Source: Pimelobacter simplex
Lineage (GTDB): Bacteria; Actinomycetota; Actinomycetes; Propionibacteriales; Nocardioidaceae
DNA length: 64,000 nucleotides
NCBI GenBank assembly: GCA_016803235.1
Contig: JADCLI010000021.1
Coordinates: 24,297 to 88,296 of the forward strand
Reading direction: 5' to 3'
This document shows positions 3,816 through 33,140 of this stretch, one piece after another. Numbering within the stretch: position 1 is the stretch's first letter; the number at the start of each line of letters is the position of its first letter. The position numbers were made by a program, and so were the translations under genes. A model generated the notes under the pieces. It made no database searches and was not told where the DNA came from. It was given only the letters and a program-made list of their open reading frames with translations.

Positions 3816-5020
<1,205 letters not shown>

Positions 5021-29585: not shown

Positions 29586-30752
29586 TCACGCGTCGTCGAG
29601 GGAGCGCACGAAGGCCCCGAAGCCGGGGAGCGTGAACCGCACCAGGCCGTGACCGACCGGCTCGATCACGCCCTTCTCGATCAGCCGCTCCCGGGGGACG
29701 CTGATGGCGCGCGAGTCGACGCCCATGCCGGCGGCGATCGCAGCCCGGGTGACGTTGCCGTCGCCGGCGGCGGCCATCGCGGCGAGGAAGCGCTGCTCCA
29801 GGCGTGAGGCCGCGCCCCACCGGGCGCGGTGCATGGCGGTGAGCTGGTCGCGGGCCACGGGCAGGCCGCGCTTGACGTGGGCGAGGGTCAGCCGGGTGCC
29901 GGTGCCGGGGTCGGCGGCGTCCCAGGTGGTGGAGCCGAGGAGCTGGAGCAGGTACGGGTAGCCGCGTGACTCGGTGACGACGGCGGCCAGGGCGCCGTCG
30001 GTCCACGCCACTCCCTCGGCCTCGGCGGGCGCGACGAGGGCGGCGCGGGCGTCGTCGTCGGAGAGGACGTCGAGCGAGACGAAGGTGCTGCGCTCGCCGA
30101 AGGTCGCGGCGCGGGTCAGGGCCTCGGGGGTGACCGGGAGGCCGGCGGCGACGGTGGCGAGCGGGTTCTCGGTGCGCTCGCCGTCGAGGTTCTGCAGGGT
30201 GTTGAGCAGGACCGACATCTCGTCGGCCGACGCGGTGTGCAGCTCGTCGAGCAGCAGGAACAGCCCGGCGCCGCCGTGGGCGCGGACCGACGCCGCAGCG
30301 TCGTGGAGCAGTGACTCCAGCATCCCGATCGCTGCGTGCGGGGGAGGGGTCGGCGCCTCCCTGCGGGCCACCTCGGCCTGCACCTTCGCGCCGGGTACGC
30401 CGACCTCGACGGTGAGCCGCTCGAGCTGCCCGCGCCACCGGTTCCCCGTCGGGACGGCGTCCGCGCGCTCGAGTGCCCGCGCGACGCTGTGGGCGATCGC
30501 CGAGAGGACGGGCTGCTGCCGGGAGCAGGCCACCCACGCGGTCACGAAGCCCGACTCGACGGCGCCCCGCTGGGCGGCGCGCAGCAGTGACGTCTTGCCG
30601 ATGCCGCGGGGCGCGTGGAAGACCATGAGCGGGCCACCGAGCTCGCCGTACGTCGCGACCCGGGCCAGCAGGCCCTCGATCCGGCGCATCTCCACGGCCC
30701 TTCCGGCGAGGATCCGGGGGACCTGGCCGGGGGTGTAAGGGTTGCTCGGCAT
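29586..30752 (-). CDS. AAA ATPase with C-terminal winged helix (ORC1/Cdc6-like), 388 aa
   Basis: Walker A HAPRGIGKTSLLRAA (about 47-61) and Walker B GLFLLLDELHTAS (about 165-177) are intact; sensor-type Arg/Asn residues follow in TLQNLDGERTENPL. The C-terminus (about 300-388) is a winged-helix-like region (ISVPRERLIEKGVIEPVGHG). Such proteins belong to the AAA_16/STAND-like family, in actinobacteria often of unknown role. It has its own strongly AT-rich, palindromic promoter region, unlike its neighbours. It is not adjacent to an effector gene, so a defence role is only speculation. Confidence 0.75.
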   Translation of the reverse strand: MPSNPYTPGQVPRILAGRAVEMRRIEGLLARVATYGELGGPLMVFHAPRGIGKTSLLRAAQRGAVESGFVTAWVACSRQQPVLSAIAHSVARALERADAVPTGNRWRGQLERLTVEVGVPGAKVQAEVARREAPTPPPHAAIGMLESLLHDAAASVRAHGGAGLFLLLDELHTASADEMSVLLNTLQNLDGERTENPLATVAAGLPVTPEALTRAATFGERSTFVSLDVLSDDDARAALVAPAEAEGVAWTDGALAAVVTESRGYPYLLQLLGSTTWDAADPGTGTRLTLAHVKRGLPVARDQLTAMHRARWGAASRLEQRFLAAMAAAGDGNVTRAAIAAGMGVDSRAISVPRERLIEKGVIEPVGHGLVRFTLPGFGAFVRSLDDA

Positions 30753-30824: not shown

Positions 30825-31265
30825 TCAGAGGTACGGATCGGTGATCTCGCGCAGCGCCGACAGCGCCTCGCGCAGGGCCGCCATCCGGCGCGGGCCGAGG
30901 TGCTCGGCCCAGGCCGACTCCAGCTCCTGCAGCGCCGTCATCGCCGCCGCCCGGGCCTGTTCGCCGCGGCCGGCGACCCGGACCAGGCGGGCCCGGGCGT
31001 CGGTCGGATCCGGGACGCGCTCGACGTACCGGCCGGCCTCGAGCTGGTCGACCATGTAGCCGGCCGTCTGCTTGGTGACCTGGGCCGACTCGGCGAGCTC
31101 GGTGAGACGCGAGCCGGAGTCCGCGATCCGCGCGAACACCCGGGCCTGGGCGAGGGTCAGGTCCCCGAAGCCCTGGGAGGCGAGGTGTGCCAGGGACGCG
31201 TTCTCGGCGTACCGGTACGGGATGAACAGCAGCAGCGGCGTGGGGGAGGGGTCGGCGTCGGTCAC
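30825..31265 (-). CDS. MarR-family regulator, module 1, 146 aa
   Basis: Winged-helix dimer repressor. Core region GDLTLAQARVFARI to VERVPDPTDARARLV holds recognition helix VTKQTAGYMVDQLEAG and the wing DPTDARARL. It ends LREITDPYL, almost the same as the second MarR at 32679 (LREITDPYR), so the two are paralogues. GTG start with ribosome site AAGGAG. It is divergent from a DinB-like gene, and a GTCAG-N5-CTGAC site lies between them. No redox Cys is evident, so a small-molecule ligand is likely. Confidence 0.9.
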   Translation of the reverse strand: MTDADPSPTPLLLFIPYRYAENASLAHLASQGFGDLTLAQARVFARIADSGSRLTELAESAQVTKQTAGYMVDQLEAGRYVERVPDPTDARARLVRVAGRGEQARAAAMTALQELESAWAEHLGPRRMAALREALSALREITDPYL

Positions 31266-31274
31266 GGCTGCTCC

Positions 31275-31303
31275 TTGACAAAATGGTCAGAAGTTCTGAC
31301 TAT
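31275..31303 (+). promoter_or_regulatory. Promoter with embedded MarR-type operator, module 1
   Basis: TTGACA (31275-31280), a 17-nt spacer and GACTAT (31298-31303) form a near-consensus promoter for the gene at 31335. The spacer carries the perfect dyad GTCAGAA-G-TTCTGAC (31286-31300), which begins 5 nt after the -35 and overlaps the -10 by 3 nt. The same geometry recurs at 32633-32661. Confidence 0.75.
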
Positions 31304-31334
31304 CGTGAGACGGACACTAGCAAGCGAGGTGGCG

Positions 31335-31958
31335 ATGGACGTCGACACGGCGTGGCAGCACACCCACGAGCAGCGGCGCGAGCTCGCGCGTCTGCTGGCC
31401 GGCCTCGACGAGGAGGCATGGGCCGCGCCGTCGGTCTGCCCGGGCTGGACGGTGCGCGACGTGGCGGCCCACGTGATCTCGGTGCCGCAGATGACCTGGG
31501 GCCCGTTCCTGCGGGCCTGCGTGCGCGGCGGCTTCTGGGTGCCGCGGGTCGGGCTGCTCGAGGGACGCCGGCGCGGACGGGCGGAGATCGCCGCCATCCT
31601 CGAGCAGTACGAGAGGTACGACGGCTCGCGTGTCTCGACGCCGTTCACCGGACACCTCGAGTCGCTGATGGACGTGCTCGTGCACGTCCAGGACATCGTC
31701 CGGCCGCTCGGCCTGCGCCACGACGCGCCGCCGGAGGCCTCGGCGGCCGCCGCGGGCGCGGCGCTGCGGCTCGGCGTCTTCTTCGGTCGCCCGCGTCTGG
31801 GCGGCGTCCGGCTGGTCGCGACCGACGTCGCGTGGAGTCACGGCCAGGGTCCCGAGGTGCGCGCGCCGATGGTGGAGCTGCTGCTCCTGTGCACGGGGCG
31901 CTCGGCCGCCGCGGCGCAGGTCGAGGGTGAGGGCCGGTCGCTGGTCCGGCTGGCCTGA
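31335..31958 (+). CDS. DinB-like / maleylpyruvate-isomerase N-terminal-family protein, module 1, 207 aa
   Basis: Four-helix-bundle protein of the mycothiol-dependent maleylpyruvate isomerase/TIGR03083 type. The putative metal-binding residues are in WQHTHEQRREL, RDVAAHVISVPQ and LVHVQDIVRPLG. WTVRDVAAHVIS and DIVRPLGL are family hallmarks. About 35-40% similar by eye to the gene at 31964, its convergent paralogue. Divergent from a MarR gene and driven by a promoter with an embedded operator. Members often handle thiol adducts or detoxification; the substrate is unknown. Confidence 0.8.
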   Translation: MDVDTAWQHTHEQRRELARLLAGLDEEAWAAPSVCPGWTVRDVAAHVISVPQMTWGPFLRACVRGGFWVPRVGLLEGRRRGRAEIAAILEQYERYDGSRVSTPFTGHLESLMDVLVHVQDIVRPLGLRHDAPPEASAAAAGAALRLGVFFGRPRLGGVRLVATDVAWSHGQGPEVRAPMVELLLLCTGRSAAAAQVEGEGRSLVRLA

Positions 31959-31963
31959 CCTCC

Positions 31964-32599
31964 TCAGGAACGGGCCGGTACGGCCGCCAGCCCTTCGCCG
32001 CTGAGCAGGTCGAGGTCGGGTGCCCGGCCGGAGGCCAGCATGAGCAGCTCCTGGATCGGGCCGCGGACGGTCGGCCCCTTGCCGCGGTCCCAGTCGATGT
32101 CGGTGGCGACCATCCGGACGCTGCGCAGCAGCCTGCCCGTGCCCATGAGGAAAGCGAGGCGGCGTACCCGGTCCGCGGCGACCGCCGCCGCCTCCGGTGC
32201 CATGGCGCGTCGTACGCCGAGGGGGCGGGCGATGTCCTGGTGGTGGAGCAGGGCGTCGATCAGGGGCTCGACCGAGGTGGTGGTCGGGACGTGGTGGGTG
32301 CTGGTCGCGTACCGCTCGAAGTCGCCGAGGATGCTCTCCCGGGTCTCTCGGGCCCCGAGTCGCTTCACCTCGCGGAAGATCATCGAGTTGTAGCCGCGGC
32401 CCAGGTTGCGCGCCATCATCCCGGGCATCGCGCCCCAGCCGATCTGTGGCGTGGAGATGACGTGGGCCGCGACGTCGTGCACCGACCAGCCGGGGCAGAG
32501 CGTGTCGTGCGCCCAGTCCGCCGGGTCGAGGTCGGCCAGCGTCGCGGCGAGCGCGGCGCGCTCGGCGTGGATGTGCGCCCAGATCGCGGCCTTGTCCAT
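31964..32599 (-). CDS. DinB-like / maleylpyruvate-isomerase N-terminal-family protein, module 2, 211 aa
   Basis: Paralogue of the gene at 31335: CPGWSVHDVAAHVISTPQIGWG matches its CPGWTVRDVAAHVISVPQMTWG, and LLHHQDIARPLGVRRA matches LVHVQDIVRPLGL. The metal-type His residues (IWAHIHAERAAL, DVAAHVIS, HHQDIARP) are kept. It converges on its partner with 5 nt between stops and is divergent from the second MarR gene. Ribosome site AGGAG. Together with the upstream module it forms a mirror image. Confidence 0.8.
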   Translation of the reverse strand: MDKAAIWAHIHAERAALAATLADLDPADWAHDTLCPGWSVHDVAAHVISTPQIGWGAMPGMMARNLGRGYNSMIFREVKRLGARETRESILGDFERYATSTHHVPTTTSVEPLIDALLHHQDIARPLGVRRAMAPEAAAVAADRVRRLAFLMGTGRLLRSVRMVATDIDWDRGKGPTVRGPIQELLMLASGRAPDLDLLSGEGLAAVPARS

Positions 32600-32613
32600 G
32601 TCGGCTCCTATTG

Positions 32614-32661
32614 GTCAGTCTTCCTGACTGATATAGTCAGTCTCACTGACCAGTTCGTCAA
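32614..32661 (-). promoter_or_regulatory. Promoter of module 2 with two MarR-type operators
   Basis: On the minus strand TTGACG (32661-32656), a 17-nt spacer and GACTAT (32638-32633) drive the DinB-like gene at 31964. GTCAG-TCTCA-CTGAC (32636-32650) sits in the spacer with the same 5-nt and 3-nt offsets as in module 1. A second site, GTCAG-TCTTC-CTGAC (32614-32628), lies 22 bp away, two helical turns, over the likely start of transcription. Confidence 0.75.
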
Positions 32662-32678
32662 GACCCGTGGAGGCCCAG

Positions 32679-33140
32679 ATGTCCGAGCCGCATCCCGCGC
32701 TGCTGATGTTCATCGGTGCGCGGTACGTCGAGCAGCGGGTCTCCGACGCGGTCGCCGCTGCCGGCTACGACGACATCACGCCGGCGATGGCCCGCGTCGC
32801 GGCCCGGCTCAGCGAGGACGGGATCCGGGTGACCGACCTGGCCGAGCAGGCCCGGATCACCAAGCAGAGCGCGAGCGTGCTGGTCGACCAGCTCGAGCGG
32901 GCGGCGTACGTCGAACGGGTGCCCGACCCCGCCGACGCCCGCGCCCGGCTCGTCGTGATCGCGCCGCGAGGGCGCGAGGTGCAGCAGGTGGCGCGCCGCG
33001 AGGAGCGGGCGATCGAGCGGGAGTGGAGCCGGCACCTGGGCGCCGAGCGGATGGCGGCGCTCAAGGACGCGCTCAAGGGCCTGCGCGAGATCACCGACCC
33101 CTACCGTGAGGATTTCGCGCAGCCCGCTCGTCGCGGGTAG
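32679..33140 (+). CDS. MarR-family regulator, module 2, 153 aa
   Basis: Paralogue of the regulator at 30825: shared elements include DLAEQARITKQSASVLVDQ (versus ELAESAQVTKQTAGYMVDQ) and VERVPDPADARARLV. ATG 32679 is chosen because GTGGAGG lies 5 nt upstream as a ribosome site; a GTG 12 nt earlier is possible. It is divergent from the DinB-like gene at 31964 across two operator sites. The TAG stop is also the start of a TAGTCT -10-like element for rplY. Confidence 0.9.
   Translation: MSEPHPALLMFIGARYVEQRVSDAVAAAGYDDITPAMARVAARLSEDGIRVTDLAEQARITKQSASVLVDQLERAAYVERVPDPADARARLVVIAPRGREVQQVARREERAIEREWSRHLGAERMAALKDALKGLREITDPYREDFAQPARRG

Follow-up and report, generated by a model that had tools for sequence, protein, structure and literature searches.

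Two divergent gene pairs, each joining a MarR-type repressor to a DinB-like enzyme, stand as mirror images at 30825-33140 of the 64,000-nucleotide stretch of DNA analyzed here (the window), from the soil actinobacterium Pimelobacter simplex, and they share one operator code. We consider it likely that each half is a self-contained, autoregulated MarR switch over an enzyme of the MDMPI fold, with probable cross-binding of the two repressors and hence jointly controlled isoenzymes.

The order MarR(-) DinB(+) DinB(-) MarR(+), with each pair divergent, fills the interval. Pair A comprises marR-A (30825..31265, minus strand), an open reading frame whose translation gives a predicted repressor of 146 residues (MarR_2, E 9e-13), and dinB-A (31335..31958, plus strand), encoding an enzyme of 207 residues. 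Pair B comprises dinB-B (31964..32599, minus strand; 211 residues), which lies tail to tail with dinB-A, and marR-B (32679..33140, plus strand; 153 residues), the predicted repressor of this half (MarR_2, E 1e-11); both MarRs exceed the gathering score. The profile families found at the locus are MarR_2/MarR, MDMPI_N and TIGR03083, the last two matching both enzymes. Identity is 52% between the MarRs and 44% between the DinB proteins, which bears out the paralogy claimed for both classes in a preliminary description of this DNA. Within the host genome dinB-A and dinB-B are each other's best other match, and a search run from marR-B gave marR-A as its best other match. Against two relatives, G262 and G303, dN/dS was 0.14-0.21 for all four genes; purifying selection acts similarly on all of them. 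An AAA_16 ATPase gene (29586-30752, minus strand) adjoins marR-A and is also found near the module in eight named loci.

All three perfect copies of GTCAG-N5-CTGAC in the window are confined to the two divergent gaps. Operator A (GTCAGAAGTTCTGAC, 31286..31300) is the single site in its gap, while operators B2 (GTCAGTCTTCCTGAC, 32614..32628) and B1 (GTCAGTCTCACTGAC, 32636..32650) are 22 bp apart, the commonest spacing. When one mismatch was allowed, the window held five matches where 3.7 were expected, an unremarkable number. The proposed promoters of both dinB genes read TTGAC(A/G), 17 nt, GACTAT: for dinB-A, a -35 TTGACA at 31275..31280 and a -10 GACTAT at 31298..31303 (plus strand); for dinB-B, a -35 TTGACG at 32656..32661 and a -10 GACTAT at 32633..32638 (minus strand). 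In each, the operator begins 5 nt past the -35 and ends 3 nt inside the -10. Gene order, operator coordinates and this matching geometry had all been reported in the preliminary description, and all were confirmed when the sequence was read again. We call the promoters from their position and conservation rather than from a sigma-70 scan, in which no promoter reached its threshold. Pair A of G262, G303 and G304 likewise has one site each, that of G304 with one mismatch, whereas the cousin loci L055 and L056 have two, so the two halves may differ in strength.

The same arrangement recurs far beyond this species. Among 60 genomic loci picked by dinB similarity alone, some of them the same place twice, 48 had a nearby MarR from the same branch, and a divergent MarR was found within 400 nt in 55 of 80 named loci (the best 80 of at least 432 relatives). 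Genera with the divergent module include Nocardioides, Pimelobacter, Kribbella, Cellulomonas, Sinomonas, Cryobacterium, Brevibacterium, Flexivirga, Streptomyces, Nonomuraea, Planotetraspora, Actinoplanes, Geodermatophilus, Blastococcus, Modestobacter, Amycolatopsis and Mycolicibacterium, among others. Once near-identical marR-dinB gaps were removed (101 reduced to 86), 59 held a perfect site and 75 held one with no more than a single mismatch; letter shuffles of the 86 gaps gave 0.003 and 0.36, respectively, and the reversed motif occurred in one gap. In 56 of the 86, a pair of sites was spaced 20-25 bp apart when up to one mismatch was allowed in one member and up to two in the other; the spacing was 22 bp in 41 of these. 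TTGAC stood 3-6 nt ahead of a site in 61 of the 86. By comparison, the 25 named DinB homologs without a detected divergent MarR had no perfect site and only one site with a single mismatch; therefore, the operator travels with the MarR and not with the enzyme alone. Judged from these sequences, the operator code predates the pairing of A and B, and the divergent MarR/TIGR03083 module is widespread in Actinomycetota. We found no description of this MarR/DinB module in the literature searched, which covered few of the subscription journals.

Eleven of the 86 gaps had no site. Visual inspection of three of them, the Streptosporangiaceae modules L142, L150 and L158, shows a TTAAGG-type palindrome upstream of position 4001 in place of GTCAG, and their MarR recognition helix reads T-P-Q. 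In L121 (N. ganghwensis) and L122 (N. stalactiti) a B-type dinB occupies the usual site and the MarR match is partial or absent, possibly through decay of the regulator.

In the mechanism that we propose, a MarR dimer would occupy the GTCAG-N5-CTGAC operator, which lies between -35 and -10 in the promoter of the divergent dinB, most relatives offering a second site about 22 bp (two helical turns) farther along the marR-dinB gap. Binding would silence the enzyme gene and probably marR as well. A small molecule would free the repressor from the operator; this compound, or one related to it, would then be modified or conjugated by the DinB enzyme, which probably uses mycothiol and a metal. Each repressor should bind all three operators, which would yield a jointly controlled pair of isoenzymes. 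We expect such cross-binding by default, since the operators have identical half-sites and both window MarRs begin the recognition helix with T61-K62-Q63; the cross-talk suggested earlier is thus plausible, and the two repressors probably bind each other's operators.

Across the family the helix motif follows the operator: 77 of 82 MarRs with T61 (the T-P-Q proteins of L142, L150 and L158 being counted as T) stand beside a GTCAG site, and six of seven with S or A do not. We rejected a recognition-helix code linking T61 to GTCAG, as the association, with three starred (five in all) independent changes, was not significant once relatedness was counted.

The same anatomy could also house insulated halves, in which the MarRs have diverged in affinity or ligand and cross-binding occurs to no effect in the cell. 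We hold this possible but on the unlikely side. Recognition-helix positions 64, 66 and 67 do differ (TAGY in A, SASV in B), A and B have separate histories, and A has one operator while B has two; however, many other variants, TAGF, SAGF and TAGH among them, also stand beside GTCAG sites (TASH in L172 and SAAA in L188 do not), and A and B do not differ in their half-sites. Unlikely, in our estimate, is an elaboration of joint control in which this is an ancient two-isoenzyme detoxification locus: repressors for different ligands would share one operator code, either alone would shut both promoters, and the resulting AND-type gate would have been selected while most relatives lost one half. If true, neither enzyme would be produced until both repressors had been released or the more abundant one titrated away.

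As for the ligand, the predicted model of marR-B (pLDDT 92) resembles many MarR structures, including entries with bound salicylate or benzoate. The conserved reactive cysteine of thiol switches of the OhrR/RosR type was not found in the window MarRs; cysteine is absent from both and from 38 of 56 aligned MarRs. The electrophile ligand proposed in the preliminary description is thus only partly affected: sensing by a conserved cysteine is unlikely because neither window MarR has one, and another electrophile-derived ligand is not argued against.

The enzymes score 88 and 97 bits with TIGR03083 (cut-off 50), a broad domain model, and 51 and 49 bits with MDMPI_N (cut-off 24). The predicted model of dinB-B (pLDDT 96) has only two matches under E 0.001, 2nsg (E 6e-6) and 2nsf (E 1.3e-5), both entries of mycothiol-dependent maleylpyruvate isomerase (MDMPI). 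The alignment spans 238 columns at 12-13% identity, with a TM score of only 0.65 and an rmsd of about 6.6. Further down, ClbS (7mtl) ranks third (E 0.28), with the M. tuberculosis mycothiol S-transferase in 17th place (E 2.5). An enzyme profile searched against PDB sequences returned nothing at E 0.01 and two YfiT-like chains at E 10. C35, H46, D115, H119, D122 and R192 are invariant in all 56 aligned rows, and H46, D115 and H119 are, by analogy with the family, presumably the metal ligands. The known enzyme is thus alike in being the best predicted-fold match and in the family name TIGR03083, but its metal triad is H-E-H, whereas the window enzymes have H-D-H and low identity to it in the fold alignment. 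The host encodes an MshC above the cut-off (below it, the MshC profile matches every control genome), and MDMPI_N matches at 13 places in the host genome. The presence of MshC permits, and does not demonstrate, the use of mycothiol by the DinB enzymes. The mycothiol-type enzyme proposed earlier is supported, and the dinB products are best described as predicted MDMPI-fold enzymes that would use a metal and probably mycothiol.

ClbS disarms colibactin, and one could read the dinB products in the same way, as metal hydrolases that disarm a toxic natural product rather than as mycothiol transferases or isomerases. The third rank of ClbS among the fold matches speaks for this, but the match is weak beside that to MDMPI (E 0.28 against 6e-6 over 238 columns) and dinB-B matches TIGR03083 at E 2e-27, so we find a ClbS-like hydrolase quite improbable and keep to the mycothiol-type enzyme.

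The mirror order, the common operators and the best matches within the genome speak for a recent local inverted duplication in this species. The phylogeny of the MarR and DinB pairs says otherwise: the paralogues are not sister sequences. We built quick trees of DinB, of MarR and of both joined, with SH-aLRT support only. Short reads were left out: those under 120 residues from family genomes, such as the MarR reads of L018 and L058, and, among named loci, DinB reads of up to 150 and MarR reads of up to 110 residues. In the DinB and joined trees pair A groups with G262, G303, G323 and G359 (support 93 and 96), apart from the large clade of pair B; the MarR tree places G359 elsewhere, and the remaining A rows join G304 (support 88), again with marR-A in the A clade and marR-B in the B clade. 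Forcing the A and B pairs together was rejected by the AU test for DinB (p 5.7e-7) and the joined alignment (p 1.1e-58), and weakly for the 143 columns of MarR (p 0.0275). Nor does the shared operator speak for such a recent duplication, because the same operator occurs at the module across its family.

Synteny points the same way. The B-type module is the resident one at glmU-prs-[..]-rplY-pth in the 24 relatives checked, G262 and G304 included. In the 16 named loci where prs and rplY are both in reach, the B-type dinB runs antiparallel to them, and 13 of 20 further loci lie at the same prs/rplY site, all in the B orientation (seven of the 13 correspond to named loci already counted); the remaining seven had no prs or rplY within the 11-13 kb examined. 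A-type modules also occur without B: in G359 a solitary one, in the A orientation (opposite to B), occupies the space between prs and rplY, and in G323 one lies beside prs, also in the A orientation, with no B in the 13.5 kb examined and rplY beyond reach. Matches to A above 62% were confined, among 341 family genomes, to the host, G262, G303 and G304, where they were at least 88%, and all four of these genomes carry the full quartet. Trees and synteny together reject a recent inverted duplication under the model used, and we give it next to no credence. The halves descend from one module as old paralogous lineages. A single clade of all modules at the locus is absent from the best tree but is not rejected by the AU test (p 0.27; 38 B rows, synteny checked for many). 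The origin is either an old inverted duplication here, after which most lines lost one half, or a separate arrival of A.

That the palindromes are RNA hairpins or terminators instead of operators is also extremely improbable: one scan scores the A palindrome as terminator-like on the minus strand, but the half-sites are conserved and the spacer variable, TTGAC lies 3-6 nt upstream in 61 of 86 gaps, and the presence of a site tracks the MarR neighbor.

In the 5.36 Mb host genome the exact operator pattern occurs at ten places, against five for a reversed control, and three of the ten are the window operators. Unlike operators A and B1, the other seven lack TTGAC within 14 nt upstream, whichever strand is read. 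We rejected a wide host regulon on this exact-pattern search, and the code looks local in the host, judged on exact sites. One of these host places (L003, 1499-1517) is a longer perfect palindrome of 19 bp, GTGTCAG-N5-CTGACAC, ahead of an acyltransferase-like open frame; it lacks the promoter context of the module and may be chance.

The double operator, with sites 22 bp apart, is present in 36 of 341 family genomes, where the reversed pattern was found in none, and in two of 396 genomes of an even sample of the phylum, one of them the host. The 30 family loci retained from the 36 genomes had matches to both MarR and DinB in 20 cases, to MarR alone in seven and to neither in three. In the seven MarR-only loci and in L096, a similar-reading open frame of 360-375 residues adjoins the double operator, and the two of these eight that were profiled are O-methyltransferases (PF00891, E 2e-41 and 1e-39). 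In these eight loci (L082, L083, L094, L095, L096, L100, L105 and L107) the double operator and the O-methyltransferase-like gene lie around 1501-1537, with a sister-branch MarR in seven; the MarRs of these seven form one clade in the MarR tree. In L085 and L087 the double operator, again around 1501-1537, stands beside a DUF1304 membrane-protein gene, and no MarR of the module's branch was found within the 3 kb locus. Wide occurrence of the operator at unrelated genes was, in the preliminary description, to count against its reading. In other genomes the operator does stand beside O-methyltransferase and DUF1304 genes; in the host no exact site at an unrelated gene has the promoter context. 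By inference, these targets point to small-molecule detoxification.

Known regulators offer partial likenesses. In M. tuberculosis the MarR protein Rv2887 binds upstream of the methyltransferase gene Rv0560c with salicylate as ligand (PMC5526998). It resembles the window MarRs in its position upstream of an enzyme gene, and a related branch of the latter also faces a methyltransferase gene. The printed 27 bp protected region, however, contains one GTCAG and no CTGAC five bases on, and the available part of that source describes neither a DinB enzyme nor a mirror pair (PMC5526998). AesR of Corynebacterium glutamicum uses two adjacent repeats in a divergent promoter; the repeat sequence is different, the targets are a cytochrome c biogenesis operon and its own operon with a protease gene, and release is by Cu, Ni and Zn (PMC13413800). 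Rv2887 and AesR work alike, and the available portions of the two reports show neither with the operator and enzyme of the window. RosR of C. glutamicum, with the transferase NCgl1216, ties a MarR-type regulator to mycothiol-dependent detoxification, but RosR is sensitive to hydrogen peroxide, whereas the window MarRs have no cysteine, and NCgl1216 is by the title of the report a Xi-class transferase and not a DinB protein (PMC6815410).

The readable operator code predicts targets for a branch of MarR regulators of which the searched literature gave no description. The regulator-enzyme module to which it belongs occurs in many families of actinobacteria and ties TIGR03083 enzymes to what would be an inducible switch. 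The module is widely conserved and the mirror pair rare, and the four genomes that carry both halves provide a natural test of how paralogous repressors with a common operator remain separate or become coupled.
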